DNA of 46,565 bases from a bacterium BMS3Abin11 (GCA_002897635.1 BDTD01000012.1:1-46565), one strand, 5' to 3'; shown: positions 2,081 to 42,818, numbered from the stretch's first letter. The notes: generated by a model not told the origin, from the letters alone. Translations and numbers: made by a program.

Positions 2081-2102
2081 CACAGCTGTCCCATAAAGAT
2101 TC

Positions 2103-2155: not shown

Positions 2156-2214
2156 AAAACCTGCCTATAACGGCATGATTGATGTACCCAATACTTCTAT
2201 TAGTATGTCTCTAT

Positions 2215-2261
2215 ATTTCACGTTTTCCGGTTAAGTCGAATATTCCTGTTATGCCGCACAT
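2215..2261 (-). pseudogene. Duplicated 5' end of the amidotransferase gene
   Basis: This 47-bp stretch repeats 1978-2024 with a single mismatch. It encodes the same first 16 residues (MCGITGIFD through KREI) and then runs into TAG. It lies 24 bp from the stop of the upstream glycosyltransferase gene, a normal operon spacing, so it probably marks the original start region. The intervening 190 bp holds the heptamer array and a palindromic repeat. Confidence 0.9.
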
Positions 2262-2285
2262 ATTATTTTATTTTAGAAAACCGGA

Positions 2286-4636: not shown

Positions 4637-4645
4637 CCGGGATCT

Positions 4646-6504: not shown

Positions 6505-6515
6505 GGCCGATATGA

Positions 6516-7667
6516 TTAGTGATGCTTACTCGAAGACCAGTCGTTTATGATGCTCGCAATTCTTTCTGCAGCTTTACCGTCCCATAACTCAGGTATATGG
6601 CCAGCCTTACCCCCAGATGCCATAATGTCATTGAAACAGGCCATGATTTTATCTGGATCTGAACCTGTAATTGTATTGGTCCCTTCTTCTACTGTAATGG
6701 GTCTTTCTGTATTTTCCCGCAATGTGATACAGGGGATTCCCAGTGCTGTAGTCTCTTCCTGCATACCGCCTGAATCTGTCAGGACAATTTTGCTGTCCTT
6801 CATCAGGCCCAGCATCTCTCTGTAGCCCAGAGGAGGTAATATGAGGAATTGTGGCCCGGAAACAAGATCCTCCAGCCGGGCATCATCAATAGACTGTCTT
6901 GTCCGGGGATGTACAGGAAATACCAGAGGAAGGCTATCGCTAATTTCCCGCAATACAACCAGCAGGCGCCCCAGTACTCCCGGGTCATCTACATTGGAAG
7001 GCCGATGTAGAGTAACAACACCATAACCCGTCTTAAATCGGGAAGATTGATCCTTACTGCACAGAGATGAGAGCATACGACCCGATGGTATGGCATTGGC
7101 AAGGTTGTAACACAGGCTATCTATCATGACATTACCGACGAAATGGATACGCTGCCGGTCGATACCTTCGTGTACTAAATTGTCGAGAGCATTTCTTTCT
7201 GTGGTAAAGAGCATATCTGAGATCTGGTCTGTCAGAATACGGTTTATCTCCTCTGGCATTGTACGATCACCACTCCTTAGCCCTGCTTCCACATGAAATA
7301 CAGGGACCCCTTTTTTTACAGAGACCAGGGCACTGGCTATTGTAGAATTGACGTCACCCACGACAAGAACAGCATCTGGCATCAGCTCATCTATAACGGG
7401 CTCTATTCGTTTCATGACCTCCGCTGTCTGCACGGCATGACTGGCGGAACCAACGCCCAGGTCGATATCGGGTTCAGGGATATGCAGTTGCTCAAAAAAT
7501 GAGTGCTTCATTGCAGCATCATAGTGCTGGCCGGTATGCACCAGTTTACACGAGAGGGAAAGCTTCGGACTATTCAGCGCCCTCATGATCGGGGCGATTT
7601 TTATGAAATTAGGCCTTGCTCCAACAACACAGAGAATCTGAGCATCCGATCTAGTACCTGAAACCAT
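6516..7667 (-). CDS. wecB: UDP-N-acetylglucosamine 2-epimerase (non-hydrolysing)
   Basis: The protein of about 383 residues carries the WecB/MnaA signature VVGARPNFIKIAPIMRAL, then VVGDVNSTIASALV, VFHVEAGLRSGDRTMPEEINR and LTDSGGMQEETTALGIPCITLRENTERP. It interconverts UDP-GlcNAc and UDP-ManNAc, feeding ManNAc-derived sugars to the polysaccharide. The ATG at 7667 gives the usual family length. The longer reading to 7796 adds residues unlike the family and lies inside the beta-barrel gene. The chosen start overlaps the end of the barrel gene by 17 bp, which indicates tight translational coupling. In canonical clusters an ATPase gene often lies between these two. It is absent here. Confidence 0.93.
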   Translation of the reverse strand: MVSGTRSDAQILCVVGARPNFIKIAPIMRALNSPKLSLSCKLVHTGQHYDAAMKHSFFEQLHIPEPDIDLGVGSASHAVQTAEVMKRIEPVIDELMPDAVLVVGDVNSTIASALVSVKKGVPVFHVEAGLRSGDRTMPEEINRILTDQISDMLFTTERNALDNLVHEGIDRQRIHFVGNVMIDSLCYNLANAIPSGRMLSSLCSKDQSSRFKTGYGVVTLHRPSNVDDPGVLGRLLVVLREISDSLPLVFPVHPRTRQSIDDARLEDLVSGPQFLILPPLGYREMLGLMKDSKIVLTDSGGMQEETTALGIPCITLRENTERPITVEEGTNTITGSDPDKIMACFNDIMASGGKAGHIPELWDGKAAERIASIINDWSSSKHH

Positions 7668-9123
7668 ACCCAGGAATGCCTTGATAGTTGGTATTAAAGA
7701 ACAGGGCCACCCGGTTTTCTTTATAGCTGTCGCCAGGGTTATCGGATTTTCTATCTGCATAAGAATAAGAGAGTGATAAACCACTCTTACGCCCAACCGG
7801 CCGTGTTAGACTCAGTAAGAACCTCCATGTATCTGAGGTAACATTTGTATCCTTCTCTTCAGTACCATACCAGCTGAGTCTCGAACGAACAGAGTATCTC
7901 CTGGTCAGACCTCGTTGAATTCCGACCCATGCCCTTGAAAAAATAGTCTCTCGGGAAGAGTCGAGGTAATCCCGTGTATCATATTGGCCAACCAGATCCA
8001 GTACCGTTCTCTTTCCTGTTAGAGTATAGAAGGCCCTGAATCTATCCTGCACGTATACACGATTATTTGTTAAGTCAACGAAATCATTCGGCTGCACAAA
8101 AGGACCATTAGTAAACGGATTGGCAGGCTGGCCAGAAAGATTCGTGGCCGGTAAAATATTTTGATCACTGAGATTATCACTGGAATCCCTCAGCTCTGTT
8201 CTGTATTCCAGTCTAAATACACTTTTACGCGCACGATGATAAAAATTCAGATTCGTGTAAGAACCAAAAAAACGACCACCATGCCTGACAGTGAAGGTAT
8301 TTCTCGAATTCGGCGTCCACCTGGCCTCCAGATACCATCGGGAAACTCCTGTACCACCCCGGGTATTTGATCCAAAGGTATTCGACTCTGTGCCAACCGA
8401 TCCCGCTACCCCCAATTTGCGGTTAAGCTGATAGCGTAGTACCGCGTCTACGTATGACCTTGTACTGTCGGCCTGCGTATCACTGTTATATTCAGTTTTT
8501 CGAGAATATCCATCCAGCCCCCAGGATATTTTTGATGACCCGGGATTAGTAAACAAGTCTGCTCTCAAGGTTTGTTGTGTTCTAGGATCAATCGTATCGT
8601 CTGAGAAACGAAAATCGCTGTATCTGTAATCGATTCTCAAATCGGCAAATCCATTCAATCGACTCACGAAATAAGGGTTAAGGGTGTTTACATATGTCGT
8701 AGTAAAGTTTCCTGTCTGGTTGATCACAGGACTTCCGGCTGCCGCGAAAGGATTTATTCGGCCTTGACCGGCTCGTGATATGAGGTCAAAGAAGAGAGAA
8801 TTTTTCACCAGCTCGTTGGCAAGCAATGCTCTGTAACGTGGAAGGACTGGATTATCGTTACCGGTGCTGAAAATCAGTGATGCGGCCAGATCAAACCTTG
8901 CTCTACGCCCCTCTCCATGCAGGAGTATACTGGGCGTTACCATACCTATAAGGCTACTCTCTTTCCTCTTTTCAACAAGCCTGACATTGTCTGTATAAAT
9001 GCCGCCAACGCTCAGGTTTTCTGACAGCCTCCAGTTCGCAGCACGCGAGACTTCAGGTGTAAATAGCAACATCGAAGAAAGAATTAGCAACCCACCAGTT
9101 AGTGGCCATCTACTTTTATACAT
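7651..9123 (-). CDS. Outer-membrane beta-barrel protein, XrtA/PEP-CTERM EPS cluster type
   Basis: A 490-residue protein with a signal peptide (positive MYKSRWP, hydrophobic stretch, likely cleavage after VSRA). The rest is made of alternating strands rich in aromatic and Arg/Tyr residues, such as SVGGIYTDNVRL, RLEYRTELRDSSDN and GLSLSYSYADRKSD, and it ends GIPGYGFRY with an aromatic terminal residue, typical of outer-membrane barrels. It matches the hypothetical barrel family that accompanies XrtA-type EPS genes. The likely role is export or outer-membrane passage of the polymer. It lies 16 bp after the kinase gene. Confidence 0.85.
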   Translation of the reverse strand: MYKSRWPLTGGLLILSSMLLFTPEVSRAANWRLSENLSVGGIYTDNVRLVEKRKESSLIGMVTPSILLHGEGRRARFDLAASLIFSTGNDNPVLPRYRALLANELVKNSLFFDLISRAGQGRINPFAAAGSPVINQTGNFTTTYVNTLNPYFVSRLNGFADLRIDYRYSDFRFSDDTIDPRTQQTLRADLFTNPGSSKISWGLDGYSRKTEYNSDTQADSTRSYVDAVLRYQLNRKLGVAGSVGTESNTFGSNTRGGTGVSRWYLEARWTPNSRNTFTVRHGGRFFGSYTNLNFYHRARKSVFRLEYRTELRDSSDNLSDQNILPATNLSGQPANPFTNGPFVQPNDFVDLTNNRVYVQDRFRAFYTLTGKRTVLDLVGQYDTRDYLDSSRETIFSRAWVGIQRGLTRRYSVRSRLSWYGTEEKDTNVTSDTWRFLLSLTRPVGRKSGLSLSYSYADRKSDNPGDSYKENRVALFFNTNYQGIPGYGFRY

Positions 9124-9139
9124 CGGGGATGAAGGGAGC

Positions 9140-10075
9140 CTATACTGATTGTGAACTCATGGGTACGTTATGTCCGTACCCATAGCCATAGCCATAGCCA
9201 TAATACTTATGCATATGATGTTGCTTATTCTTATTGAGCAGCATACTGATTATCTTATCACCACCAATGTGCCGCAGTGCTTCATCAACAGCTTCCTGAG
9301 ATGTTTTTTCTGCTTCTACAACTACCACAATCTGCCCCATCAAGCTTGCCAGAACACTTGCCTCTGTAGTCTGTAAAAGCGGTGGTGTATCGACAATAAT
9401 GACGCGGTCAGAAAATCGATTAGATAAATCCTCGACGACACGGTGCATGCTCTCACTGGCGAGCAGTTCATTTGCATTGTCATGGACATGGCCTGCTGGA
9501 ATTATGCGCAGATTGGGAAGATTAGTGTTCAACATGACGTCACCAATACCAGTGCCCTCATTTTCCAGTATATCAATCAGACCTGGTTGGTCACCGCCTA
9601 CGCCAAGTAGTCTCCCCCCTGAAGAGTTTGATATGTCTGCATCGATAAACAATACAGTTTTATCAAGTTCCATGGCGATACTCAGCGCCAGATTGATCGA
9701 GGAAAAAGTCTTTCCCTCTCCCTGCAAGGCGCTGGTTACCATGATTACATTTATATTATCGACCTTGGCAGCACCTTTTCCGGCGATGTTCATCAGCAAA
9801 GGACGCTTGATAGTTCTGTACTCTTCTGCAATTCGGCTTCTGGGCATATCAGGTGTGATCATCCCCAATGATTTAAGGTGCTCAAATGGAATATTTACTG
9901 TCTTGCCGAGTTCTGATTGCGTCGTGGTGTGGACTTCTGCTGAGGGGTTGTATGACGGGCTATCGCCTGAGATAGAGATTTCCTCGACATCGGAGATAGC
10001 AGGAAGGTCAGGTCTGGCCAGGTTGACGGCCGATTTCTTTTCCAGTTTATTCACTGCCTTTTCGATAATGCTCAT
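9140..10075 (-). CDS. Tyrosine autokinase (BY-kinase), XrtA/PEP-CTERM EPS cluster type
   Basis: A 311-residue cytoplasmic BY-kinase. It starts MSIIEKAVNKLEKK, as the family does. The Walker A motif is ALQGEGKTFSS (about residues 116-126), Walker A' is VLFIDADIS and the later DTPPLLQ resembles Walker B. The C-terminus has a tyrosine cluster with repeated Tyr-Gly pairs, the presumed autophosphorylation tail. Such kinases control polymer length with a membrane chain-length partner, here the preceding gene. The ATG at 10075 is preferred over a TTG at 10090, which abuts the upstream stop codon, because it gives the conserved N-terminus. No separate transmembrane activator is fused, so the partner is the GNVR protein. 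Confidence 0.9.
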   Translation of the reverse strand: MSIIEKAVNKLEKKSAVNLARPDLPAISDVEEISISGDSPSYNPSAEVHTTTQSELGKTVNIPFEHLKSLGMITPDMPRSRIAEEYRTIKRPLLMNIAGKGAAKVDNINVIMVTSALQGEGKTFSSINLALSIAMELDKTVLFIDADISNSSGGRLLGVGGDQPGLIDILENEGTGIGDVMLNTNLPNLRIIPAGHVHDNANELLASESMHRVVEDLSNRFSDRVIIVDTPPLLQTTEASVLASLMGQIVVVVEAEKTSQEAVDEALRHIGGDKIISMLLNKNKQHHMHKYYGYGYGYGYGHNVPMSSQSV

Positions 10076-10090
10076 AATAGTCTCGCGCAA

Positions 10091-11632
10091 CTAAATAGAA
10101 AGGATATCCTGGCTCATATTCACCCCTACAAATGCGAGTACGAGAAACAGGGCCAGGGAGGCATACACAAGTCCTCCAATTAATGCCTTACGCTCCTGAT
10201 CAGGAGACGGGATAAAGGTGACACATCCAAGGACAGGTAACCCGGTAGCCCGTCTGAGAGTACGCCGATTATGGAAAACGGGATAAAGCAGAGAGAGCAG
10301 GAATACGATACCTATACTGGCGATGATGGCCACAAAAAATACGCCTGTATTGAGTAGCAATTTATTCGGCTCAGTCGGCTTCAATGGTACAAACGGCGGA
10401 TCTATCACCCTGAATTTAATAGTACTGGCACCTTCCTCCAAATCTTCTGATAAAAATGCCGATTCTCGCCGTTGAAGTAGCTTGGCATGCTGGGCTGAGA
10501 TTGCCCCGTAATCTCGATTCAGCTGCTTCAATCGGGCCTCAACTTCTGGAACTTCATTGACCTTCGCTTCCAGTTCCTTAGCCCTTTTATCATATTCCTC
10601 AGCGCGCACCTTAAGCTCCGCTATCGTCGCTTCTGTCTCTGCCAGCATATTCTGTTTCTGCTGATAGACAGGGTTGTTCAGCAATTCCGGAGTGTTTTTT
10701 GTAGAGCCTGATCTGTTCTTGCGTTTTTTCAGTTTCAGCTCGCTGATCATGCTTTTTATCTGGATCATTTCAGGATGGCGGTCAGTGTATTTTAATGACA
10801 ATCTATCCAGCTTCTCCTGCAGAGATTGAATACGCAGATCAAGTGGCGAATTACTTTGAATTTCATCCATACCTGTATAAAGAAGCGCTGAGTCTTCATC
10901 CTGGTCATCTTCGAGTTGTCGTTCAAGCTCAACTCGTCTGTTTTCCATTTCAGAGAGCTGTAGACGCACTTCACTGGCAGAGTTCTTTACTTCTTGCAGG
11001 CGCTCATAATATTTGCCAACGCCTCCATTCAATACAGCAGCATTTCGTTGTTTGAAGTCTACCATACGAGTTTCTGCTTCTTTTAGGCGCACCTCATAAT
11101 CAGCTATCTGTTTTTCAATAAATGTTTGTGCCTCGTTACTGTCCAGGCGTTTATTTCCAAGCGTACTTTCAGTAAACACTGATATAAGTGACTGGACCAT
11201 TAACTTTGCTGTGTCCCTGTCTTTATGTTTGAAAGATGCTGTGTAGAGGGATGAATTGCGACGATCACCCGTTAAGCTGATTTTTTCACTCAACTTTTTA
11301 AATAAATCCTCCTTATCCTGCTCATTGTTTACCTGTAGATCCAGGTCTGTCATACGCATCAGCTTTTCCAGATTCGGACGGCTGAGTAGAGTTCTGCTCA
11401 CTAAGGCTGTTCTTTGCCTTAAATCCGGTTGAACAGTCAGGCCTTTCAGTAGTGGGCGCAATATCGAATTTGTATCAACGTAAATTCTGGCGGTGGCCAG
11501 GTATTGCTCTGGTATGGTTGCTACCCAGATCCAGCCCGCTATAGATATCAGCCAGACCAGTGCCAGCATAACCCAGCGGAAGCGCCATGCTCCCCAGAAA
11601 TAGTCAGATATCTGTGCCAGTATTACTTGCAT
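10091..11632 (-). CDS. Polysaccharide chain-length determinant (Wzz/GNVR type)
   Basis: A 513-residue inner-membrane protein. TM1 lies at about residues 18-36 (RWVMLALVWLISIAGWIWV) and TM2 and a further hydrophobic segment near the C-terminus (FFVAIIASIGIVFLLSLLYP and ALFLVLAFVGVNMS). The long periplasmic part is predominantly coiled coil, followed by LNRDYGAISAQHAKLLQRRESA, the conserved membrane-proximal segment. It sets polymer chain length and docks the tyrosine kinase encoded next. Five bases separate it from the export lipoprotein gene. Length and architecture match the XrtA-cluster subfamily. Confidence 0.9.
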   Translation of the reverse strand: MQVILAQISDYFWGAWRFRWVMLALVWLISIAGWIWVATIPEQYLATARIYVDTNSILRPLLKGLTVQPDLRQRTALVSRTLLSRPNLEKLMRMTDLDLQVNNEQDKEDLFKKLSEKISLTGDRRNSSLYTASFKHKDRDTAKLMVQSLISVFTESTLGNKRLDSNEAQTFIEKQIADYEVRLKEAETRMVDFKQRNAAVLNGGVGKYYERLQEVKNSASEVRLQLSEMENRRVELERQLEDDQDEDSALLYTGMDEIQSNSPLDLRIQSLQEKLDRLSLKYTDRHPEMIQIKSMISELKLKKRKNRSGSTKNTPELLNNPVYQQKQNMLAETEATIAELKVRAEEYDKRAKELEAKVNEVPEVEARLKQLNRDYGAISAQHAKLLQRRESAFLSEDLEEGASTIKFRVIDPPFVPLKPTEPNKLLLNTGVFFVAIIASIGIVFLLSLLYPVFHNRRTLRRATGLPVLGCVTFIPSPDQERKALIGGLVYASLALFLVLAFVGVNMSQDILSI

Positions 11633-11637
11633 TTTAA

Positions 11638-12279
11638 TTAGAACCAGGACTCTGGAATGATAACTATGTCGCCTGGAAGCAGTGACAGATTTGCCGAGAT
11701 ATCTCCATCCTTTATAAGGTCATCAAGACGCACACTGAATGTTTTTTGTTTGCCATCATATGCCCGAATGAGAACAGCCTTATTGCCATTAGCGAAAGGA
11801 GTCAAACCGCCTACTGCTATCATTAAATCAAGCAGAGACATGTGTTTGTAATATGGAATTTTTAGAGGGCGCATTGCCTCGCCGATTACCCGAACCTGCT
11901 GGGGAGGGATGCCGACAAAACCATTGACTATGACGCTGACAACCGGATTTTTTACATACTCGGAATAAGCTACCTCGATATCACGCGCTAACTGTGTTGA
12001 GGTTTTTCCGCTGGCCGGAATATCCTCTACCAGACGGGTAGTGATTTTTCCGTCTGGCCTGACAGGCACACTCAACGTCAATTCAGGGTTGCCCCATACA
12101 AAAATCTCCATCGAATCGCCAGGTCCAATTATGTAATTGAAATCCTGAGGCAGATTGCGTTGATCTTCCGGTATTTGGGGATAACTGGATGTTGTTGAGC
12201 AACCAGAAATGATTACTAACGCCAGACTCAATCCAATTATTAAAAACTTTTTCGTAAACAACTTCGGAAATTCGTACAC
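11638..12279 (-). CDS. Polysaccharide export lipoprotein (Wza-like, short)
   Basis: A 213-residue outer-membrane export protein. The signal sequence ends in the lipobox IISGC, giving a lipidated Cys at about residue 27. The poly_export domain follows (YIIGPGDSMEIFVWGNPELT, DGKITTRLVEDIPASGKT, VSVIVNGF) with one SLBB-like repeat (VRVIGEAMRPLKIPYYKHMSLLDLMIAVGG). The start is a GTG preceded by a strong GGGGAGG ribosome site. It is the first gene of the minus-strand EPS operon. The protein is shorter than E. coli Wza, as usual in XrtA-linked clusters. Confidence 0.92.
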   Translation of the reverse strand: MYEFPKLFTKKFLIIGLSLALVIISGCSTTSSYPQIPEDQRNLPQDFNYIIGPGDSMEIFVWGNPELTLSVPVRPDGKITTRLVEDIPASGKTSTQLARDIEVAYSEYVKNPVVSVIVNGFVGIPPQQVRVIGEAMRPLKIPYYKHMSLLDLMIAVGGLTPFANGNKAVLIRAYDGKQKTFSVRLDDLIKDGDISANLSLLPGDIVIIPESWF

Positions 12280-12328
12280 TGATCGATCCTCCCCTATTAC
12301 TTTATTCGTTTTGTATTACAACATTGAG

Positions 12329-12356
12329 ATTCTAGCTTAAATCATATGGAATACAA
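12329..12356 (-). promoter_or_regulatory. Candidate sigma-70 promoter of the EPS operon
   Basis: Read on the minus strand, TTGTAT (12351-12356) and TAGAAT (12329-12334) are 16 bp apart and lie about 50 bp upstream of the GTG start of the export lipoprotein gene. Both hexamers are one or two bases from consensus. Assigned by eye only. Confidence 0.5.
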
Positions 12357-12436
12357 GCCAGTAGAGCAGAAAATTGTAAAAAATCAGGTGTAATCTGACA
12401 CTTAAGGGCAGGCCTGATGATCACTACTCTTCAGTG

Positions 12437-12602
12437 TATAGGGCGCCTCTATTAATTCATGAATAATCATCTTGCATCCAAAACCCACCATATCTGCGTT
12501 AAGAACCTTCGCAATTGCTAGCTATTACGTGCGTTTCTTGCCTTGATCTGGCAGCTTTTGAATCCAATCTGAATTATCCTGAATTAATAGAGGCGCCCTA
12601 TA
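12437..12602. mobile_element. MITE-like 166-bp element with 23-bp terminal inverted repeats
   Basis: The ends (12437-12459 and 12580-12602) are perfect inverted copies reading TATAGGGCGCCTCTATTAAT... inward. Similarity continues a few bases inward with mismatches. TATA at each edge could be a target duplication or part of the repeat. No coding capacity is seen. Half-copies of related termini (GGGAGCCTCTGATTAAT and GGGAACCTCTGATTAAT) occur at 17228, 35624 and 36688, so this is a family. Confidence 0.8.
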
Positions 12603-12670
12603 GATATGATATCATCCTGCCAGGTTGAATTAATGAAGATATTTGAAATACACAAATCATATAAGACGTT

Positions 12671-14056
12671 ATGAAAGGCGCACTACCACACCGTATTACA
12701 TGGGCAAAAGCAGGGCTGGTCTTACTTCTTGGTGATATTTTAGCAATATCAATACTTTACGAAACTGTTCATTATGTCCGGCTGGGGATATTCATAGATC
12801 TATTATCTATACCATTTTTTTCGGTATTAACCGCAGTTCTACTGACCCTGTATGTAACAGACGTCTATCGAATAGAAACCCCTGTTGCTCTCTCGAGGCT
12901 ACCACTATCAGCTGCATTCGCGTCTTTATTTTCAATATTAGTCAGTGCAGCAATTATATATGCTTTCGGCCCATTACAATTCGATTCAATTTTCGGTCGT
13001 GGTGTGATGCCGGTTGCATTGATACTTTTTTCTGTCTGGGCGTTTTGGTCAAGGTATGCATTATCCAGATGGTTCGAAAAAATACAGGAAGCAAGGCGGT
13101 GGTTATACCTGGGAAGTGTTGAAAAATTAGTATGCCTGATAAAAGATTTCAACCTGGATTCATCTGACAGTGTAATTTTACTGGATGATAAAGAGAACGA
13201 AGACGCACTGCCAGCTGACTATGTAAGATGTGTTCAGGGGCGTGTGAGTCAGTTAACATCAGCCGATTTACAGGGTATTACGGATGTCGTTGTTGCTACA
13301 GACCACGCCTTCACGGATATTGAAATATCGGCACTAATGAAAATCCGGGCATCCGGTGCTGGTGTATTCGACTTCACAGCATTTTACGAACAATATCAGT
13401 CTAAGGTGCCCGTGGTGCATTTAAAACATGGCTGGTTCGTGCAGGGAGGTGGATTTTATCTGTTGCAAAATAAAATTGGCCTCAAAATTAAACGCATAAT
13501 AGATATATTTCTATCAGTAGTATGCATTCTTGTACTGAGCCCAATTTTATTAATTACAGGTATAATTGTGAAACTGGATTCCAGTGGCCCTGCCATCTAT
13601 ACGCAATTGCGTGTCGGGTTAAATGGAAAGTGTTTTTATATATATAAAATCAGATCAATGATTAACGATGCTGAAACGGATGGAGTTAAGTGGGCTGAGG
13701 ATGATGACCCACGCATCACACGAGTTGGCCGATTTATCAGAAAGATCAGGATAGATGAACTCCCGCAATTGCTAAATGTGTTGAGAGGGGATATGAGTTT
13801 TATCGGCCCGCGTCCGGAACGATCTGAGTTTATTAAAAAGTTAGTAAATGAGATCCCATACTACGATTTGCGGCACCTTGTTTTGCCAGGAATAACTGGC
13901 TGGGCTCAGGTGATGTATCCATATGGCGCATCTGTAGAAGATGCACGTGAAAAGCTGGAATACGATCTATTTTATATAAAGAACTATTCCCTGTTACTGG
14001 ATTTTGCAATTCTTATGAAGACATTGCGTATCATACTCTGGCATAGAGGGCGTTAA
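12671..14056 (+). CDS. Initiating sugar transferase, polyprenyl-phosphate type (XrtA EPS cluster)
   Basis: A 461-residue polyprenyl glycosylphosphotransferase. The N-terminal half has several membrane segments (about residues 10-120) and a Rossmann-like CoA-binding-type domain. A further membrane segment (IIDIFLSVVCILVLSPILLITG) leads into the catalytic domain with YKIRSM, RKIRIDELPQLLNVLRGDMSF and IGPRPERSEF, the bacterial sugar transferase signature. It attaches the first sugar-1-phosphate to undecaprenyl phosphate. It is divergent from the rest of the cluster. Its last 26 bp overlap the convergent glycosyltransferase gene. Confidence 0.92.
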   Translation: MKGALPHRITWAKAGLVLLLGDILAISILYETVHYVRLGIFIDLLSIPFFSVLTAVLLTLYVTDVYRIETPVALSRLPLSAAFASLFSILVSAAIIYAFGPLQFDSIFGRGVMPVALILFSVWAFWSRYALSRWFEKIQEARRWLYLGSVEKLVCLIKDFNLDSSDSVILLDDKENEDALPADYVRCVQGRVSQLTSADLQGITDVVVATDHAFTDIEISALMKIRASGAGVFDFTAFYEQYQSKVPVVHLKHGWFVQGGGFYLLQNKIGLKIKRIIDIFLSVVCILVLSPILLITGIIVKLDSSGPAIYTQLRVGLNGKCFYIYKIRSMINDAETDGVKWAEDDDPRITRVGRFIRKIRIDELPQLLNVLRGDMSFIGPRPERSEFIKKLVNEIPYYDLRHLVLPGITGWAQVMYPYGASVEDAREKLEYDLFYIKNYSLLLDFAILMKTLRIILWHRGR

Positions 14057-26375: not shown

Positions 26376-26527
26376 TTTAATCCCTATGGGCATAATTCCC
26401 CGTGGCTTGCCACGAAAACTGTAGGTGCGAATTCATTCGCACAATGTGCATAAACATTGGCATCGCTGTGCGAATGAATTCGCACCTACATTTAATACCC
26501 CGTCAGCTTGCTGCGGGGTAGTTTATT
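26376..26527 (+). repeat. 152-bp palindromic repeat, copy A
   Basis: The copy is base-for-base identical to copies at 31724-31875 and 42642-42793. It contains a CGTGGCTTGCCACG hairpin, two facing copies of a GTGCGAATTCATTCGCAC-type hairpin that together form a 22-bp inverted repeat, and a distal ACCCCG...CGGGGT hairpin. No target duplication flanks it. No coding sequence. Confidence 0.95.
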
Positions 26528-26555: not shown

Positions 26556-26620
26556 CGGCCACCGTTTTTACGTTCGCAAAATAATACAAATCAATCAATG
26601 AAATAAACATGGTGCGTGCT

Positions 26621-28810
26621 ATGAAGTTTAAATCTGTTTTCTTACAGGCGATTTCCATTGCCTGCCTGCTAGGTTTATCTGGTCAGACACTGGCACAGCC
26701 TGACCCCGCTTCGCAGGAGTTTCTCAAGCAATATGGTCTACAAATCGTTAACGTGTTTCCAGCCTGGAGCAGCACGACAGGCAGCGGAATTGTCGTTGCT
26801 ACTCTGGATTCCGGGGTGAATACGTCTCACGTTGAGATGGTTGGGAGAATAGCTGCAGGCGGCGATGTTGGTGATGTGGATGATGGCGGCGGCCATGGGA
26901 CATCTGTCGCGGGTATTATCGCTGCGAATTTTAATGGCCAGGGCATCATCGGTGTAGCTTATGATGCATCAATCCTGCCGATACGCGTCGCAGATTCAAA
27001 CCGCTTTGCCAGTTCAAATTCTGCAGCAGCAGGATTTAATCGAGCGGCAGCGCGCAGTGATGTACGTGTAATCACATATACCGCCGGCACCATTTTTTCC
27101 GAGCCCCAGAATAGCGCGATCATAAATGCCGTAAAAGTTGGTAAGCTCGTGGTAATTAGAGCCGGAAATGATGGCCAGGCAAACCCGGATATTCCGCCCT
27201 CAGTCTATAACCAGTTTAATGGTGGCGGCATCATCGTTGGCGGAACGGGACAAAACAGCACTCTTCTTGATATGTCAAATCGTGCGGGCGGTGCAGCAGC
27301 TGTCTATATGGTGGCGCCAGGCCTTAGTATTCATGCACCGGGTAATCGTGGCAATACTAGTTATGTAACCTGGACAGGCACATCAGTTGCAACACCACAT
27401 GTGGCAGGTGCGGCAGCATTGATACTGGCACAAAACCCTGAGCTTACCAGCCAGCAGGTGGTGGAAATTCTGTTTAACAGTGCTACGGATCTTGGTGCCC
27501 CAGGTGTTGATCCCATCTATGGGCATGGCATGTTGAATGTCGGCGCGGCACTTGCGGCTCAGGGTGGTGTTGGGTCTTCCTCAGGTGGCTCAGGCGGCGG
27601 ACTGGGCGTAGGAATAGCCGCCCTTGCTGTTGGCGGGGGCCTGGCCTATTTCTGGAACGAGAATGAAAAAGCAAAAAAAGAACTGGAAAAGACGCTGGTT
27701 TTTGATAAGTACAACCGTCCGTATATCATGAATTTAAACCAGACATTAAATGTACAAAACAGTACGCCAACATTGTTCAATGTGATGAATATGTTTGATC
27801 GTCAGACACGTACTGTGGATGTCAGCATGTCTGATAATCTTTCATTGTCTCTGCATACACGAACTACTAACCCGGCAGATTATGTTTTTCTGAAAGATTC
27901 AGATCCTTTCCTTGAGAATTATGATGAGGTAAGAGACAGTGATCTTTCAATGAAAATGGCAGGAAATTTTAACAGCGGCTTTTCATTCAATCTTCAGCAC
28001 AATTATACCCCTTCAAGTGGGTTCGATATGGTCGGTAATTTATCATTAAGTGAGAACTTTATCTGGGCCAGCTCATATGGGTCGCAGTACATGGGCTTCG
28101 GTAATCGTTCTGATAATGTCAGTATGGGTTACAAAACCAGTGAAAAACTTTCGTTCCAGCTTGGGGCCAATCGTCTAAATAGTAACAGGCTAAATGGACT
28201 AAGCAGTGAGGCGGTGATGCTGCAGGGTAGTTATTCACCAACTGAAAAAATGAGTGTTTCATTACGGGTAAATAATCTTTTTGAAGATGGCAATCTGCTT
28301 GGTGGTGCGTCGAGTGGAGCATTCAGTGTCGCGAATGCTAATACCACTGCAATTGGCCTGACAGGACAGTACCGAATGTTTGATAAATTTTCTCTGTTTG
28401 GAAGCTTTACCGAGGGGTTTACCGGGGTAAAGCAGCAGCAAGGCTCATTCCTGCAGGGGTTTTCGGCCTTAAGAAGTTACTCATGGGGAACCGGGATAAT
28501 CGGTAAGAGCCTGTTCCGCTATAATGACCGCGCAGGGCTCGCTGTCTCCAGCCCTCTGCGTATCAGCAACGGTAGTGCCGATCTCCTCGTGCCGCAGTCA
28601 CTCGACAGTCAGCGCAATGTTATTAATAGTCGAACACGTGTTTCTCTTGCCCCAGAAGGCAGAGAAATCGATTTAGAAGCCTTTTACAGGATGGATCTGA
28701 ACCATCGTACCCAGATCGGCACAACGTTAACATATCGCGATACCCCGGAAACTACCAGCTATGTTGGTAAAGGACTATCCGTGTTTACGACTGTTGGCTT
28801 AAGGTTCTAG
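26621..28810 (+). CDS. S8 subtilisin-like protease with barrel-like C-terminal domain
   Basis: About 729 residues; an in-frame ATG four codons earlier is also possible. The signal peptide (MKFKSVFLQAISIACLLG) probably ends at LAQ. Counting from the earlier ATG, the catalytic triad is Asp67 (ATLDSGVN), His96 (GGHGTSVAGI) and Ser259 (TGTSVATPHVAGA), with oxyanion Asn187 (RAGNDGQ). A Gly/Ser linker and a hydrophobic stretch (GVGIAALAVGGGLAYFW, about 335-351) come next. A C-terminal region of about 360 residues follows with many alternating beta strands, ending in VFTTVGLRF with terminal Phe. This suggests a protease tethered to or secreted through the outer membrane, autotransporter-like. Confidence 0.85.
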   Translation: MKFKSVFLQAISIACLLGLSGQTLAQPDPASQEFLKQYGLQIVNVFPAWSSTTGSGIVVATLDSGVNTSHVEMVGRIAAGGDVGDVDDGGGHGTSVAGIIAANFNGQGIIGVAYDASILPIRVADSNRFASSNSAAAGFNRAAARSDVRVITYTAGTIFSEPQNSAIINAVKVGKLVVIRAGNDGQANPDIPPSVYNQFNGGGIIVGGTGQNSTLLDMSNRAGGAAAVYMVAPGLSIHAPGNRGNTSYVTWTGTSVATPHVAGAAALILAQNPELTSQQVVEILFNSATDLGAPGVDPIYGHGMLNVGAALAAQGGVGSSSGGSGGGLGVGIAALAVGGGLAYFWNENEKAKKELEKTLVFDKYNRPYIMNLNQTLNVQNSTPTLFNVMNMFDRQTRTVDVSMSDNLSLSLHTRTTNPADYVFLKDSDPFLENYDEVRDSDLSMKMAGNFNSGFSFNLQHNYTPSSGFDMVGNLSLSENFIWASSYGSQYMGFGNRSDNVSMGYKTSEKLSFQLGANRLNSNRLNGLSSEAVMLQGSYSPTEKMSVSLRVNNLFEDGNLLGGASSGAFSVANANTTAIGLTGQYRMFDKFSLFGSFTEGFTGVKQQQGSFLQGFSALRSYSWGTGIIGKSLFRYNDRAGLAVSSPLRISNGSADLLVPQSLDSQRNVINSRTRVSLAPEGREIDLEAFYRMDLNHRTQIGTTLTYRDTPETTSYVGKGLSVFTTVGLRF

Positions 28811-28899: not shown

Positions 28900-29637
28900 A
28901 TGAGAATACTTTCTATAGTCATACCTGCCTATAACGAAGAAGCCTCTATTGGAACTCTGTTAGAGAAGATAGCTCAGGTTGATCTGGAATCCGTCGGGGT
29001 GAATAAGGAAGTGATTGTCGTTGATGATTATTCCAGCGATCGAACCGGTGAGATAGCCAGACAACACAAGAATGTGTCCTACTATCTGCAGCCGGAAAAC
29101 CGCGGTAAAGGTTCGGCGGTCAAGCGGGGGATCTCGGTTTCTACAGGTGACTGGGTACTGGTGCAGGATGCGGATCTTGAGTATGAACCAAACGACTACA
29201 TCTCCATGATTGAGGCGGCGAGCCACGATCCCGAGCACACATCTATCTATGGTAGCCGCCTGCTAGGGCAGGCTGTATTGTTTCCGGAAGGAAAGCTCAT
29301 CAAGAGCAAACACAGGGAGCAGAAGTTCGTCAACTGGTTGGCCAACCGCTTGCTTACGATCTTTGCCTTTATACTGTTTGGAAAGTGGATCACCGATACC
29401 TTAACGGCCTATAAGCTCTATCCTGGCAAGTTGATTCGTTCCTATAACATCGTTACTAGCGGATTTGAAACAGACCATGAATTGACGGCATTCCTGATCA
29501 GAAGCAACATCAAGATCATAGAGGTGCCGATCCACTACTATCCCAGGGGTGTAGAAGAGGGAAAAAAGATAAAGACCACAGACTTTTTTATTGCCCTGAT
29601 TACCCTCCTCAGATTCAGATTCCGTAGATTGCCCTGA
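28900..29637 (+). CDS. Glycosyltransferase family 2 (dolichyl-phosphate mannosyltransferase-like)
   Basis: A 245-residue GT-A enzyme: SIVIPAYNEEASIGTLLEKI, VIVVDDYSSDRTGEIA, VLVQDADLEYEPNDY (the metal-binding DxD), then IYGSRLLGQ and FGKWITDTLTAYKLYPGKLI. It probably transfers a sugar from a nucleotide donor to polyprenyl phosphate. It starts 89 bp after the protease gene, and the following integral membrane protein, 20 bp downstream, is a likely user of such a lipid-linked sugar. Confidence 0.88.
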   Translation: MRILSIVIPAYNEEASIGTLLEKIAQVDLESVGVNKEVIVVDDYSSDRTGEIARQHKNVSYYLQPENRGKGSAVKRGISVSTGDWVLVQDADLEYEPNDYISMIEAASHDPEHTSIYGSRLLGQAVLFPEGKLIKSKHREQKFVNWLANRLLTIFAFILFGKWITDTLTAYKLYPGKLIRSYNIVTSGFETDHELTAFLIRSNIKIIEVPIHYYPRGVEEGKKIKTTDFFIALITLLRFRFRRLP

Positions 29638-29657: not shown

Positions 29658-31697
29658 ATGAGTTTTTCTCCCGCAAAGCGATCTGCAATCCTTGCCTTCG
29701 GTGCGGTTTTGCTATTGGCACTGGGGCTGCGCGCGTTCTTTATCTGGATCAGCATTACCCACCTGCCTGTTACCGGAGATGAGGCCCTCACTGTTTTAAT
29801 CTCCAAGCAGGTGATCAGAGGGGAGTGGCCATTATTGATCAGTGGAACGCCCTATCTGTTTCCGATCGAGGGCTATTTGATGGCCCCCCTGGTGGAGTGG
29901 ATGCCGAGAAACGTTGTCGGTGCACGCTATCTGACTTTGTCCCTTGGGCTACTGTCCCTTGTCGGTTTCTTTTTTCTCGTTAAAAAGGTTCTGCCCAGGG
30001 ACAGCCAATGGCCTGCGTTTCTCCTGGTTCTTTTCCCATCTGCCTACCTGTTGATCATCCAGTCGGGGTATGTGCCGCCAAATTATGCGACCAGTATTCT
30101 CCTTGCCTGGGCAACTTCCTCTCTGTTGGCAGTGTCTTTCACTTCCTCTCGACCTTATCTTCTGTACCTGGTCATCGGGGTCATTGGCGGGATTGCGTTT
30201 GGCGTGCACATGCTTGCGATCTCCTACATATTTCCCGCCTTTATATTGATACTGCTGGGCAGAAATTTTATCGATGCTGCAAAGGGCGCCGGCAGTTTTT
30301 TGCTTGGGATGCTGATAGGACTCGTACCTTTTATACTTTCTATCGTGCTCTACCCTCACGCACAGGAAGCCGTCTCAAAGACCCGGCCAGTCCTTGAAGT
30401 AATCCGGCGTCTATGGGATCCCGCCCTTAGCCAGACACTGCCTGGAGCGATGGGCATCAACCCGGTTTTGTTTCCTGATTTTACTGCCCACCTGGGTCAA
30501 TTACCCATATTGAGGAATGTTTTTGCCGTCGCCTATTCGCTTCTGATTCTTGTTGTGTTTTTCCACAGACTGGTCCAGTTTGTTCGTCATGTCAAACAAG
30601 GTCGCTGGCCTTATCTCGATATCCAGGATTACTTTCTGGCCTCCAGCCTCATTGCCATTGTCCTGTTTGCCTTTAGCGAGCGTGCGACTGCCGAGTCGTA
30701 CAGGTATCTGGTGGTACCGGTAATCTTCTTTCCCTTTTTGTTTGGCTATGCATTTTCAATTTCCGGGAGAAAATTGCGCTATGCAATGGGTTCGGTTGCT
30801 GTGGGTCTGGGGCTGTTTAATTTCGTAACCTCTATAGAGGTCATACGTTCCTGGCGTACACCACAGTTTGCAGGCGAGATTGCAAAAACTCCCGAAATCA
30901 TTCCCTTAATAGAAGAACTTAAGAAAAAAGGTATTGACCGTTGTTATGCCTCATTCTGGTTGGGGTATCGTATTATCTTTCGAACGGATGAAGAGATTAT
31001 ATGCGCACCGCCCTATAACGAGCGCTTTCTTGGATGGCCGATTCCATACAAGGATAGGGTCGATAAATCACCGGATGCTCGTTATATTCTTACCCACGGC
31101 TACGATACAAGACTGCCAATTACCGCATTTGAACGACACATGAGGGAACAGAATGTTTCTTATTCGAAGTGGAATGTCGGGCCATTCTATATCTATGAGG
31201 ACTTCCATCATAAACAGGCCGATGTGGACACCAGAATTTCCAGCCAGGACTATTCACTAAACAGCAGTACCCAGGGGTCGGGGCTAGAAAACCTCAGTGA
31301 CGGCAATGAGCTTAGCTCATGGGCTAGCGGTTCTGAACAGAAGGTGGGCATGTGGTTACAGGCGGAGTTTAATGCCCTGCGTACAGTCCAGCGAGTGACC
31401 CTGGTTTACCCCTTTATCTATCCAGATATCCCCGATGAGACTGCCAGGTCAATCAGAATACTGGGCCGAAGAGGTGACTCCTGGACTGTTATTGCGGACA
31501 ATATGGCACATCATTTCGACAGAATCCGGTTCCGGGAAAGACACCCGGTCTACGGTGGCATGCATCAGACTTTCTGGTTTGAGCCTATCCAGCTTGATGC
31601 AATAAAAGTAGAGATTATTGTGCCGAGAAAGGGAAAGCTGTGGAGAATGAGTCAGTTAGAATTTGGTTCTCCGTGTGAAGGTTCGACGGGTTGTTGA
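29658..31697 (+). CDS. Integral membrane glycosyltransferase-like protein with discoidin-like C-terminal domain
   Basis: A 679-residue protein. About ten membrane helices occupy residues 10-410. The first periplasmic loop has TGDEALTVL, fitting the acidic motif of ArnT/PMT-type GT39/GT83 enzymes that use polyprenyl-linked sugars. After a soluble segment (about 410-530), the last about 145 residues (LENLSDGNELSSWASG ... QAEFNALRTVQRVTLVYP ... DAIKVEII) look like an F5/8 type C carbohydrate-binding fold. It follows the GT2 gene by 20 bp and probably uses its product at the periplasmic face, which is inference. Confidence 0.7.
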   Translation: MSFSPAKRSAILAFGAVLLLALGLRAFFIWISITHLPVTGDEALTVLISKQVIRGEWPLLISGTPYLFPIEGYLMAPLVEWMPRNVVGARYLTLSLGLLSLVGFFFLVKKVLPRDSQWPAFLLVLFPSAYLLIIQSGYVPPNYATSILLAWATSSLLAVSFTSSRPYLLYLVIGVIGGIAFGVHMLAISYIFPAFILILLGRNFIDAAKGAGSFLLGMLIGLVPFILSIVLYPHAQEAVSKTRPVLEVIRRLWDPALSQTLPGAMGINPVLFPDFTAHLGQLPILRNVFAVAYSLLILVVFFHRLVQFVRHVKQGRWPYLDIQDYFLASSLIAIVLFAFSERATAESYRYLVVPVIFFPFLFGYAFSISGRKLRYAMGSVAVGLGLFNFVTSIEVIRSWRTPQFAGEIAKTPEIIPLIEELKKKGIDRCYASFWLGYRIIFRTDEEIICAPPYNERFLGWPIPYKDRVDKSPDARYILTHGYDTRLPITAFERHMREQNVSYSKWNVGPFYIYEDFHHKQADVDTRISSQDYSLNSSTQGSGLENLSDGNELSSWASGSEQKVGMWLQAEFNALRTVQRVTLVYPFIYPDIPDETARSIRILGRRGDSWTVIADNMAHHFDRIRFRERHPVYGGMHQTFWFEPIQLDAIKVEIIVPRKGKLWRMSQLEFGSPCEGSTGC

Positions 31698-31723: not shown

Positions 31724-31875
31724 TTTAATCCCTATGGGCATAATTCCCCGTGGCTTGCCACGAAAACTGTAGGTGCGAATTCATTCGCACAATGTGCATA
31801 AACATTGGCATCGCTGTGCGAATGAATTCGCACCTACATTTAATACCCCGTCAGCTTGCTGCGGGGTAGTTTATT
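31724..31875 (+). repeat. 152-bp palindromic repeat, copy B
   Basis: The copy is identical to copies A and C over all 152 bases and in the same orientation. It lies between two convergent genes, 27 bp after the membrane glycosyltransferase gene. Its last two bases form part of the stop codon of the minus-strand nucleotidyltransferase gene. Confidence 0.95.
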
Positions 31876-32620
31876 AGTAATTTTCTCCACATAATTGCAG
31901 TGTTAGCTGGCGCACATCTTCAGGAGTATTGACTCCGACTGTTTCTATTTCGTCCGTTCCACTCATTGGCATCACCACTTCCCGTTTAGCAAGCCAGGGA
32001 ATAAACGGCAGAAAATTACGCTCTCCAGTAGTCCCACCGAGTTCTGGCGATGATGAAAAACTGTTTTCCAGCTGCTGAAAGGCGGAGAGTGACATTGAAA
32101 ATAGCCCCATGTCATTATTCCCTGTATCCGGCATCTCATCCCCTTCTCGACGCTGCAGGACACGAGAAATCTGACCTTTATCATCCATGTCGAAATGAAT
32201 ATAAGGCGAGGACTTCCGGATTATTGGAACAATCATGGGTGGATCGTTCTTCTCCTCAAGTCTCTTCATGCGATCCAGGGTCTTAGCTTGAATGGCGACT
32301 TGATCACACCATGTGATCCATATTCTTTCAGGCCGGATTTCCCGCACCGCTCTTCCTGCCTCAAGAATTGCATCCAGCATCCCGGTAGGTTCACCCTGAA
32401 TCACTATCCTGACGGGCAATTCTGAACTTCTGAAATATTCCTGCGCTAGCTCAAACGCATCGGTACTGACCACAACCACTGCTTCATCAACAAAGCGACA
32501 GTGTAAATCCAGTACATGATCAATTAAGGGTTTGCCGCATAAAGGATAGAAAAACTTCGGCTTATCGTAACCCAGACGTGTACCACGCCCAGCCGCTGGA
32601 ACTATCAGTACCCTTTTCAC
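31874..32620 (-). CDS. Nucleotidyltransferase (sugar-phosphate or polar-headgroup type)
   Basis: A 248-residue protein. RVLIVPAAGRGTRLGYDKPKFFYPLCGKPLIDHVLDL is the NTP-binding signature of the GT-A-fold nucleotidyltransferases. RIWITWCDQVAI supplies the second metal-binding Asp region, and TGMLDAILEAGR and GERNFLPFIPWLA follow. Such enzymes activate phosphorylated sugars or choline-type headgroups with CTP or UTP. The substrate is not evident. It overlaps the HAD gene by four bases and is last in a three-gene coupled operon. The 3' end abuts a mobile repeat. Confidence 0.82.
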   Translation of the reverse strand: MKRVLIVPAAGRGTRLGYDKPKFFYPLCGKPLIDHVLDLHCRFVDEAVVVVSTDAFELAQEYFRSSELPVRIVIQGEPTGMLDAILEAGRAVREIRPERIWITWCDQVAIQAKTLDRMKRLEEKNDPPMIVPIIRKSSPYIHFDMDDKGQISRVLQRREGDEMPDTGNNDMGLFSMSLSAFQQLENSFSSSPELGGTTGERNFLPFIPWLAKREVVMPMSGTDEIETVGVNTPEDVRQLTLQLCGENY

Positions 32621-33273
32621 TGAAGCACCCCTAGCTCGATCAGCCCGTCGTTCAAATTAGCATAAGCACCCATGAACAGGTCAGCATCTGAGCGCACGCC
32701 AGTATGAACCGTGCATACTCGTACGCCCGCCGCAATAGCGGCTTCCACACCAGATTGACTGTCTTCAAGGATCAGGGTTTTTCCCGCAGGAACTGCGGAT
32801 TTTCTCAGTACTTCATTGAACACCATGGGATCGGGTTTGCCCTGGATCACTTCATCGGCCGTTACAATAAAGTCGAAACACGCAGTAATACCCATACTTC
32901 CAAGTGCCAGAAGCGCGGATGCCCGCGATGCACCGGTCGCCACAGACATGCGCCAACCATCAGCGTGAAGTTTATTAATGATCTCCACTGCGCCCGAACA
33001 AACCTTAAAGTCGTGTTTCATCTCCCGACGCGCCATTTTCTGCTTGAACATTACCCATTCGTTGATTTCTGCCTCAGTGGGCTCTAGCGACCGAGTGATG
33101 GTTGAAACAACCTCCACCGTTCTTTTCCCAGCGATAGTGTCATATTCAGGCCCATGGATTCCAAGTTTATCCCAGAGTTTCTGATAGGCCGCCAGGTGGC
33201 AGGGGGATGAGTCGATTAACACGCCGTCCAGGTCGAATATAAGGTATTCAATATGGGGCTGAAGTGAAGTCAT
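32617..33273 (-). CDS. HAD-superfamily phosphatase or phosphomutase
   Basis: A 218-residue HAD subfamily I protein with a helical cap. Motif I FDLDGVLIDSSPCHLAAY, motif II VATGASRASAL, motif III Lys in QGKPDPMVF and motif IV LEDSQSGVEAAIAAG. It resembles beta-phosphoglucomutase or phosphoglycolate-phosphatase relatives. In the operon it sits between a CofD-like/GT2 fusion and a nucleotidyltransferase, with 4-bp overlaps at both ends. A role in preparing the phosphorylated substrate for activation is inference. Confidence 0.88.
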   Translation of the reverse strand: MTSLQPHIEYLIFDLDGVLIDSSPCHLAAYQKLWDKLGIHGPEYDTIAGKRTVEVVSTITRSLEPTEAEINEWVMFKQKMARREMKHDFKVCSGAVEIINKLHADGWRMSVATGASRASALLALGSMGITACFDFIVTADEVIQGKPDPMVFNEVLRKSAVPAGKTLILEDSQSGVEAAIAAGVRVCTVHTGVRSDADLFMGAYANLNDGLIELGVLQ

Positions 33274-35216
33274 CCGTGTTGGCCAAACAGGCGATTCTTC
33301 AGGATTACCCCTAGCGCTTTCAGTCCATCCATTACTGTAGTCCGCTTTACTTTTTTCGGAGACTGGGAAAAAAAACGTACAGGCATTTCCAGTACTTCAC
33401 CCCTTTTTTTCAGGATACCGGAGAGCAATTGCTGATTATAAATCGTCGGTTCCCGATTAAAGGGGATATCTACCAACAGGCTTTTACGGATTACGCGTAC
33501 TCCCGACAGCGAATCGGAGATGTAGCGGCCGAATAAAAACAGATAGACCAGGCTAAGTAAATGGCTGCCAAGATAACTGATTGCACCAATAATGCGCCGA
33601 TGCTGGAAACGTAGACGGTAGGAATCATGAATATCATTTACTGACAGCCTCCGACTTCCCCATACGGCATCCAGGTCACTGGATTCAAGGACGCTAATCA
33701 GCTTCATGATATCACCGCCGTGATACATCCCGGAGGATTCAAAGAGTACTACGTAGTCGTAATCAGATTCTGACAGGAATTGCCGGACATCCCCGGGTAG
33801 AACATGAATAGTCCGGAAAGGCAGGAATTCTTGCAACGATTTCGGCAAGGGCGATTCCAGTTCGCTGATGAGATCTATATTCGGTAGCCGTTCCGATGCT
33901 GTATGACGCAGCATTTGCAACACACTCTGGGTGATTTTATCGGCAGAGATCGCTTCCTGCATCAAAACCGCTAATTTCAGGCTCCGCCTCTGACGGAAGA
34001 TAGTATTGATAAACGGTGTCAGCGCTTTGTCTGCATCATGAAATCCAGAAGAGCCATCTTCGTATTCGCCAATACGAATGGCACGTGGGTCATCAATCAG
34101 GCCAAGATCACCTGGCGCAATATGAGCGGCGCCACTTCGGGCCTGGTCTGGGTAATTGATCAGCGAATGTGTCACCAGTAGTGGATCCGGGAAATCCCTA
34201 CTGTCTTTTTCGCGCAAATAGAAGCGGGCGCGATCGGCGATATCAACGGCCTGATAATTCGTAATCTCTGCATCTTCATAGATGTTGGTGATCAACAGTT
34301 TGATAGCCGTGAAGTTGGCCGCGATCGCATGACCAATTTCAGGTGTCATATAGGAAGGGTAAAGACTTGAGTGCTGCGTGCCCGGTGAATATATAATCAG
34401 ATCAGCCCTCTCCAGTGCCTCCAGAGCGGCAGAATTTGCAACCGGGGCAACGGAGCGCTGCTGCAAGCATTCCATAGCCGCGACTTTATCCATTTTTTCC
34501 AATGAGGACTTTTCTAACTCATCGAAGGGGCTGCCAATCAGGTAGATATCTTCAATATGGTTCTTCTGTGCCGAATCAACAATAGCTTCTTCGCTGGCAA
34601 GGAAATGATTATTCCTGTCCAGAGCCACCAGGAAGAGATTTTTGCCATTGGTAACATTAACAATCAATCCATCAGGCAACCCCATGAGACCACAATAATT
34701 GTCTACTGCTCGGTTAAAATCTCGCCCTTCTGCCAGATAACAACCTGTAAACACCAGGTTGCCGATGGCGCAATCAGCAAACGCAAACCCACCTGTTCTG
34801 TATATTGAGAGGAAGTGCCCCAGCCTGTCTGCAACCATTGACAGTGTTTGCGTGTTCAACTGCTGCACCACAGACCTGACATCATTTACCGTAACCGGCA
34901 ATTTATCGATACGCTGCTCCGCCAGCATTTTGACTGCGCATACGCCATCCTGATCGGACAGATCGACGGGTAAGCGCAGATCGAATAATTCTATCAGCGC
35001 GCACTCGCAGGTATTCAGTTCGTTAGCAAATCGGGAGGCATTCTTTCGGAAATCCGAGGGGCCCAGGCTATCCCCCAGAAAACGGCGTACCTCACCCGTT
35101 GATGCGCCATCGTCATAACCATTGATCAACACCGTTAGCGAAAGCCCTGGTTGCCTGACTAATCGCTTTGACAGCACTGTCGAACCACGTCCTCCAGAAA
35201 ATATGACTACTTTCAT
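33270..35216 (-). CDS. CofD/YvcK-like protein fused to a degenerate GT2-like domain
   Basis: A 648-residue fusion. Residues 1 to about 370 match the CofD/YvcK family: VVIFSGGRGSTVLSKRL, then LINGYDDGASTGEVRRFLGDSLGPSDFRKN and IYSPGTQHSSLYPS. After a linker, about residues 470-648 resemble the C-terminal half of a GT2 dolichyl-phosphate mannosyltransferase (YDYVVLFESSGMYHGGDIMKL, AVWGSRRLSVND, LFLFGRYISDSLSGVRVIRKSLL). The metal-binding DAD found in the GT2 enzyme at 28900 is replaced by FES. YvcK relatives bind UDP-sugars, and CofD transfers a phospholactyl or related group from a nucleotide. The combined function is unknown. It overlaps the HAD gene by four bases. Confidence 0.75.
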   Translation of the reverse strand: MKVVIFSGGRGSTVLSKRLVRQPGLSLTVLINGYDDGASTGEVRRFLGDSLGPSDFRKNASRFANELNTCECALIELFDLRLPVDLSDQDGVCAVKMLAEQRIDKLPVTVNDVRSVVQQLNTQTLSMVADRLGHFLSIYRTGGFAFADCAIGNLVFTGCYLAEGRDFNRAVDNYCGLMGLPDGLIVNVTNGKNLFLVALDRNNHFLASEEAIVDSAQKNHIEDIYLIGSPFDELEKSSLEKMDKVAAMECLQQRSVAPVANSAALEALERADLIIYSPGTQHSSLYPSYMTPEIGHAIAANFTAIKLLITNIYEDAEITNYQAVDIADRARFYLREKDSRDFPDPLLVTHSLINYPDQARSGAAHIAPGDLGLIDDPRAIRIGEYEDGSSGFHDADKALTPFINTIFRQRRSLKLAVLMQEAISADKITQSVLQMLRHTASERLPNIDLISELESPLPKSLQEFLPFRTIHVLPGDVRQFLSESDYDYVVLFESSGMYHGGDIMKLISVLESSDLDAVWGSRRLSVNDIHDSYRLRFQHRRIIGAISYLGSHLLSLVYLFLFGRYISDSLSGVRVIRKSLLVDIPFNREPTIYNQQLLSGILKKRGEVLEMPVRFFSQSPKKVKRTTVMDGLKALGVILKNRLFGQHG

Positions 35217-42598: not shown

Positions 42599-42818
42599 AA
42601 AGACTCGGGACTAAGGACGAAAGAACAGGAAGTTGATGAGTTTTAATCCCTATGGGCATAATTCCCCGTGGCTTGCCACGAAAACTGTAGGTGCGAATTC
42701 ATTCGCACAATGTGCATAAACATTGGCATCGCTGTGCGAATGAATTCGCACCTACATTTAATACCCCGTCAGCTTGCTGCGGGGTAGTTTATTCTTTCAT
42801 CCTTAGTCCCAGGTCTTT
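42599..42818. repeat. Outer inverted repeat surrounding repeat copy C
   Basis: AAAGACTCGGGACTAAGGAC... (42599-42625) and its inverted partner (42792-42818) form 27-bp arms with about three mismatches. They enclose the 152-bp repeat plus 16 bases. Copy C therefore appears nested in an older palindromic repeat. Confidence 0.75.
42642..42793 (+). repeat. 152-bp palindromic repeat, copy C
   Basis: This is the third identical copy, in the same orientation as A and B. It lies upstream of the pstS promoter and downstream of phoR, and is nested between the arms of another inverted repeat. Confidence 0.95.

Follow-up and report, generated by a model that had tools for sequence, protein, structure and literature searches.

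A conserved CofD/YvcK-GT2 fusion cluster in two classes of bacteria, a possible front end of an undescribed glycosylation pathway

Introduction

CofD is the 2-phospho-L-lactate transferase of F420 synthesis, where its partner is CofC. Polyprenyl-phosphate sugars are the products of DPM/AglJ-type GT2 enzymes and serve GT-C enzymes as substrates on the opposite face of the membrane. YvcK, a further member of the CofD superfamily, is a UDP-sugar binder (PMC5482804), and GlmR/YvcK has a uridylyltransferase activity that requires a pair of aspartates (DD) and an asparagine and can form UDP-GlcNAc (PMC10128056). Next to a polysaccharide synthase of Mycoplasma fermentans there are genes for a CofD-family protein and a nucleotidyltransferase (PMC11658790).

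We analysed a stretch of 46,565 nucleotides from the bacterium BMS3Abin11 (GCA_002897635.1 BDTD01000012.1:1-46565), referred to as the window, which contains a CofD/YvcK-GT2 fusion gene, a HAD gene and a nucleotidyltransferase gene. Like the M. fermentans locus it combines the CofD family with an NDP nucleotidyltransferase among glycan genes, and by analogy that pair is an independent hint that the two families may serve glycans; the CofD copy there is a pseudogene, however, and neither a GT2 fusion nor a HAD gene is described. The cluster is real, conserved and, within the reach of our search, undescribed: the kinds of enzyme are known, the fusion and the combination are new. The initial annotation had regarded a pathway of this composition as uncharacterised, and our literature search agreed, returning nothing on CofD in clusters with a glycosyltransferase and a nucleotidyltransferase. 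The reading that we prefer, and to which we give roughly even chances, is that the three genes form the cytoplasmic front end of a glycosylation pathway together with a partner GT2, a GT-C-like protein and a docking role for the fusion.

Results

Structure of the locus

The three genes are on the minus strand. Gene 1 (33270-35216, 648 aa, ATG start) encodes a YvcK/CofD-superfamily domain followed by a degenerate DPM-like GT2 domain, gene 2 (32617-33273, 218 aa, ATG start) a HAD-IA phosphatase or beta-phosphoglucomutase-like enzyme and gene 3 (31874-32620, 248 aa, GTG start) a stand-alone GlmU-like nucleotidyltransferase. The open reading frames are as first annotated, and neighbouring frames share 4 bp (ATGA and GTGA). 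Both overlaps are also found in L004, the sister MAG, and in L005/L033, from a less closely related gammaproteobacterium of a different family. Between the window and L004 we obtained dN/dS values of 0.15 (gene 1), 0.17 (gene 2) and 0.15 (gene 3), so these are selected protein-coding genes and not chance reading frames. The Pfam matches of the window proteins were CofD with 75 bits (cut-off 30), HAD_2 with 110 bits and NTP_transf_3 with 62 bits.

Two associated genes lie on the plus strand, convergent with the operon and 176 bp from it: an intact DPM/AglJ-like GT2 (28900-29637, PF00535 with 102 bits) and a polytopic GT-C-like membrane protein (29658-31697). At 31770-31836, where the GT-C and nucleotidyltransferase genes converge, there is a REP-like palindrome with two 21-bp arms (TAGGTGCGAATTCATTCGCAC). 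It is about 67 bp long and has four intergenic copies in the window (2105-2153, 26422-26488, 31770-31836 and 42688-42754) where 0 are expected by chance; the copy at 31770-31836 is probably incidental to the cluster. A promoter and terminator scan gave no useful excess over the shuffled expectation.

Elsewhere in the window, positions 138-14056 hold a large exopolysaccharide cluster resembling those that accompany exosortase/PEP-CTERM systems. It comprises an asparagine synthase, GT4s, a FemAB-like protein, a deacetylase with DUF3473 and a UDP-GlcNAc 2-epimerase as well as a beta-barrel porin and Wzz-like, AAA, polysaccharide export and sugar transferase proteins.

The CofD/YvcK half, the HAD enzyme and the nucleotidyltransferase

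In gene 1 the YvcK/CofD-superfamily domain extends over residues ~1-400 and the GT2-like domain over ~410-648. Residues 3-351 match Pfam CofD (PF01933) above the gathering score, a match that gene 1 thus has in common with CofD. When a profile built from twelve relatives was compared with the PDB, YvcK chains ranked first (2hzb, 2ppv, 2o2z, 2p0y, 2q7x) and no CofD chain appeared at E<=0.01. The likeness to YvcK/GlmR (UPF0052; 2hzb, 2o2z, 2ppv) is that of a superfamily: the GG-x-G loop, DDG, S-x-GN and the GPG(S/T) loop align, and D35-D36 fall on the DD pair (D40/D41 of Listeria GlmR). Within the gene 1 family the DDG and SPGTQHSS loops are conserved. However, gene 1 scores only 59 bits on NCBIfam TIGR01826, under the cut-off of 196 bits, it carries insertions in addition to the GT2 fusion and Ser replaces the Asn of the GPG...PN loop in every family member. 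A structure prediction from two sequences reached a pLDDT of 30 and the model was discarded. By bit score, the top NCBIfam hit was the GAK system CofD-like protein TIGR04357, aligned to the CofD half; we rejected a GAK system, as the score was 67 bits against a cut-off of 340 and no ATP-grasp or HprK-like partner occurs among the window genes scanned.

By these comparisons the CofD half is nearer to the UDP-sugar-binding YvcK than to CofD. By analogy it most likely acts on a nucleotide sugar, be it as sensor, as second uridylyltransferase or as sugar-phosphate transferase, because YvcK binds UDP-sugars and GlmR can form UDP-GlcNAc.

For gene 3 the profile search of the PDB placed GlmU chains first (9dqf, 1e-28). 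K22, Q75, D106 and N231 are invariant, and N231 is presumably the metal-binding Asn of GlmU. The match runs along the N-terminal uridylyltransferase domain, and K22, Q75 and D106 correspond to K25, Q76 and D105 of GlmU, which coordinate UTP (PMC10128056). Gene 3 differs from GlmU in that it lacks the C-terminal acetyltransferase domain, scores 55 bits on TIGR01173 against a cut-off of 366.85 and deviates at the sugar-side positions of the alignment. A canonical full GlmU is encoded separately in the window genome, and we therefore rejected gene 3 as its replacement. Since the sugar-side positions differ and the normal GlmU is present, gene 3 is probably a dedicated enzyme with a substrate other than that of GlmU.

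Gene 2 has its nearest PDB relatives in TM_1254 and the beta-phosphoglucomutases. D14, D16, K146, E170 and D171 (the DxD motif, the Lys of motif III and the Glu-Asp of motif IV) are invariant in 7 relatives, as would be expected of an intact relative of HAD phosphatases and mutases; either activity fits.

The same genes could be read as a module like CofC/CofD, in which the nucleotidyltransferase would activate an acid or alcohol in phosphorylated form, and from this the CofD half would pass the phospho-group to a sugar or lipid hydroxyl with release of NMP, as in F420 chemistry. This is close to the idea of the initial annotation. The pairing of a nucleotidyltransferase with the CofD superfamily, the conserved DDG and SPGTQHSS loops and the CofD Pfam match all agree with it. 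We nevertheless consider it unlikely, if the best of the alternatives: the nearest relatives are YvcK and GlmU rather than CofD and CofC, gene 3 has no CofC-family match in Pfam or NCBIfam (its matches are to NTP_transf_3/IspD/GlmU) and the stand-alone GT2 is left unexplained. F420 synthesis itself we rejected, given a partner of this GlmU-like type in place of CofC. Of the earlier proposal that the genes make and attach a nucleotide-activated phospho-group or sugar, the sugar role therefore fits and the phospho-acid is less likely, because the CofD half is closer to YvcK and gene 3 is GlmU-like, not CofC-like.

Distribution and composition of the cluster

The initial annotation had suggested a search for these families in other genomes, and the three families are indeed kept as a unit in two classes of one phylum. 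Among 369 gammaproteobacterial genomes 3 have both the fusion and the nucleotidyltransferase and 366 neither (Fisher 1e-7). The full-length fusion is limited to the window genome, G003 and G116; a search with the gene 3 profile hits these three again at E<1e-105, and all other matches are GlmU-like at 1e-29 or worse. In the second class, that of genome G392, the fusion and gene 3 each occur in 10 of 48 genomes, with 9 in common; one gene only was found in 2 and neither in 37 (Fisher 6e-8). In both genomes with a single gene (G528 and G389) the contigs stop next to or within the cluster. This class is most likely Magnetococcia, because genome G377 of this class codes for a protein that over 274 residues is the same as PDB 5hvx, which we take to be NavMs of Magnetococcus marinus MC-1; we use the name below in that sense.

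Loci from four genomes of one Magnetococcia genus (L024, L025, L027, L028) contain, in this order, the fusion, a GT-C-like gene, a radical SAM gene, a methyltransferase, the HAD gene, the nucleotidyltransferase and a GT2. L023, L029 and L030 have these Magnetococcia genes in rearranged order, with no GT-C-like gene found in the three and the HAD gene missing from one (L023, in G401). In G414 the fusion and the remaining genes are on different contigs, whose ends preclude a firm claim of unlinking. G116 carries the whole gammaproteobacterial set of five genes on the same strand. The cluster with an intact GT2 is present wherever the contig is long enough, and the three-gene unit first annotated thus proved too narrow: the intact DPM-like GT2 belongs to it, as does the GT-C-like gene in every gammaproteobacterial locus and in some of those from Magnetococcia, where the radical-SAM and methyltransferase genes are further members. 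The search for a radical-SAM ortholog in the window genome, G003 and G116 was negative, and the two classes may accordingly make different products. The genome of L029 (G470) gave more than 40 matches to the B12/radical-SAM query, which is unusually many.

The distribution within genera is patchy. The system was found in 2 of the 7 genomes searched of the window's own genus, and it is present in G116 and absent from its congener G232. Among named bacterial genomes the sole relative is the sister MAG JAADJE010000084. Viral contigs gave no relative, and plasmids yielded nothing closer than distant YvcK/GAK/CofD proteins or GT2s on their own, with no fusion; the partner set was absent from the two plasmid neighbourhoods inspected. 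On the Rhizobium plasmid pR132504 (L141, 2824-7122) a YvcK-family gene has a HAD phosphatase and a pair of NUDIX hydrolases in its vicinity, a further phosphate-metabolism context for the fold.

The fused GT2 domain and its partners

The initial annotation had described gene 1 as a CofD/YvcK-GT2 fusion. The CofD match stands, and GT2 ancestry can be traced through intact relatives, although Pfam does not see a GT2 domain (PF00535) in the C-terminal half of the window protein or of the L033 protein; the window half has a weak AglJ match. In the Magnetococcia relatives the half is a recognisable GT2 domain (Pfam, 67 bits), and in the PDB comparison the C-terminal half of the profile matched the dolichol-phosphate mannose synthase 5mlz. 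The Magnetococcia copies show the motifs VPALNE, VDGGSxDGT, GRGAAxRLG and FPADGEY, that is PxD for the DxD of DPM synthase and AglJ-type enzymes. In the window and L033 proteins these motifs are lost, with for example FESSGMY where the DxD motif is expected, and RYISDxLSG is retained. The dN/dS was 0.19 for the GT2 half and 0.14 for the CofD/YvcK half. In the window lineage the domain has therefore lost its donor-binding motifs under continuing purifying selection, and the fusion itself is unlikely to be a glycosyltransferase here.

The stand-alone GT2, by contrast, carries every motif of the DPM/AglJ type. Both PF00535 and DxD are present, QDADLEY and GFETDHEL are invariant in 11 loci and the window protein is ~50% identical to the cluster GT2 of Magnetococcia. 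A tree separated fused from stand-alone GT2 domains with a support of 100/97 and put 2.8 changes per site on the branch to the gammaproteobacterial fused copies. Docking to the partner GT2 would be the likeliest reason for keeping the fused half, because it is a decayed relative of the very enzyme that accompanies the fusion.

The GT-C-like protein has at least 8 hydrophobic segments, GDE near the N-terminus and an extramembrane C-terminal domain with a weak F5/8-type C match. We assigned it to GT-C from the hydrophobic segments and acidic motifs, a family match being absent, and detected no homology between the gammaproteobacterial and the Magnetococcia proteins. In gammaproteobacteria the gene occurs in 3 of 229 genomes, solely those with the fusion, and each of these genomes has one further paralogue elsewhere, at a locus unrelated to the cluster. 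These second copies (L129 9463-11517, L130 1538-3577, L131 9349-11478) are ~49% identical to the protein at 29658-31697, and the match in the window's own genome has an in-frame TAA. Between the window and G116 the GT2 is 88% and the GT-C-like protein 82% identical, compared with 46, 37 and 42% for the operon genes, so the GT2/GT-C block and the operon differ in history, yet remain adjacent. A subtilase with a long C-terminal region (26609-28810) adjoins the GT2. It could be a substrate or partner of the system, since a 36% identical subtilase is also near the L033 cluster.

A degenerate GT2 half might also be a sensing or docking module of a regulator. Gene 1 would then be a UDP-sugar sensor like YvcK/GlmR that steers cell-envelope flux, with gene 3 topping up the UDP-sugar pool. 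There is precedent in YvcK/GlmR (PMC5482804, PMC7525490 and PMC6171935), yet gene 1 reaches only 59 of the 196 bits that the YvcK model requires, a patchy occurrence in 3 of 369 gammaproteobacteria does not resemble that of a housekeeping regulator and the genome has its own GlmU. We regard this as rather improbable. Least probable of all is a loose genomic island of mobile glycan genes linked by co-transfer rather than by one pathway, which would suit the patchy occurrence within genera and the unequal divergence of operon and neighbours and is opposed by the presence of the same families in two classes despite different gene order and additional genes, and by the purifying selection on the window genes.

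Discussion

Returning to the glycosylation pathway, we infer its reactions, sugar, lipid, acceptor and the docking role as follows. The HAD enzyme would make or trim a sugar phosphate, as phosphatase or 1,6-mutase, and the GlmU-like gene 3 product would couple it to a nucleotide, most likely UMP, to give an NDP-sugar. The stand-alone DPM-like GT2 would transfer the sugar to polyprenyl phosphate and the GT-C-like membrane protein would pass it to an acceptor in the periplasm. The CofD/YvcK half of the fusion would bind and act on the nucleotide sugar, and the degenerate GT2 half would serve the active GT2 as a docking or regulatory module. The radical-SAM enzyme and the methyltransferase of Magnetococcia would further modify the sugar or the lipid. 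This order, from sugar phosphate to NDP-sugar, polyprenyl-phosphate sugar and periplasmic acceptor, is the simplest because the HAD enzyme and the nucleotidyltransferase precede the GT2 and GT-C steps. Several points count against it: the structure prediction gave no usable model, the HAD gene is missing in L023, the window genome yielded no radical-SAM ortholog, the GT-C assignments come from hydrophobic segments and acidic motifs instead of a family match, and in the window the GT2 and GT-C-like genes are on the strand opposite to the operon and differ from it in history.

A more specific version is that the CofD/YvcK half moves sugar-1-phosphate from the nucleotide sugar made by gene 3 to a hydroxyl of the polyprenyl-linked sugar that the partner GT2 makes, and releases UMP. 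We think this doubtful, at a level between the regulatory and the island explanations. If true, it would mean a phosphodiester-linked glycan made by a fold not known for such chemistry.

YvcK/GlmR proteins are widespread and important in cell-wall homeostasis, and whether they are enzyme, sensor or both is unsettled. In the present cluster a lipid-sugar synthase domain is joined to the YvcK fold, and the enzymes that would make the ligand are encoded alongside, which makes it possible to guess both ligand and partner and to test them directly. In addition, the active site of the fused GT2 is lost in steps, with PxD in one class and no donor motif in the other, which offers a natural series from an enzyme domain to an accessory module.
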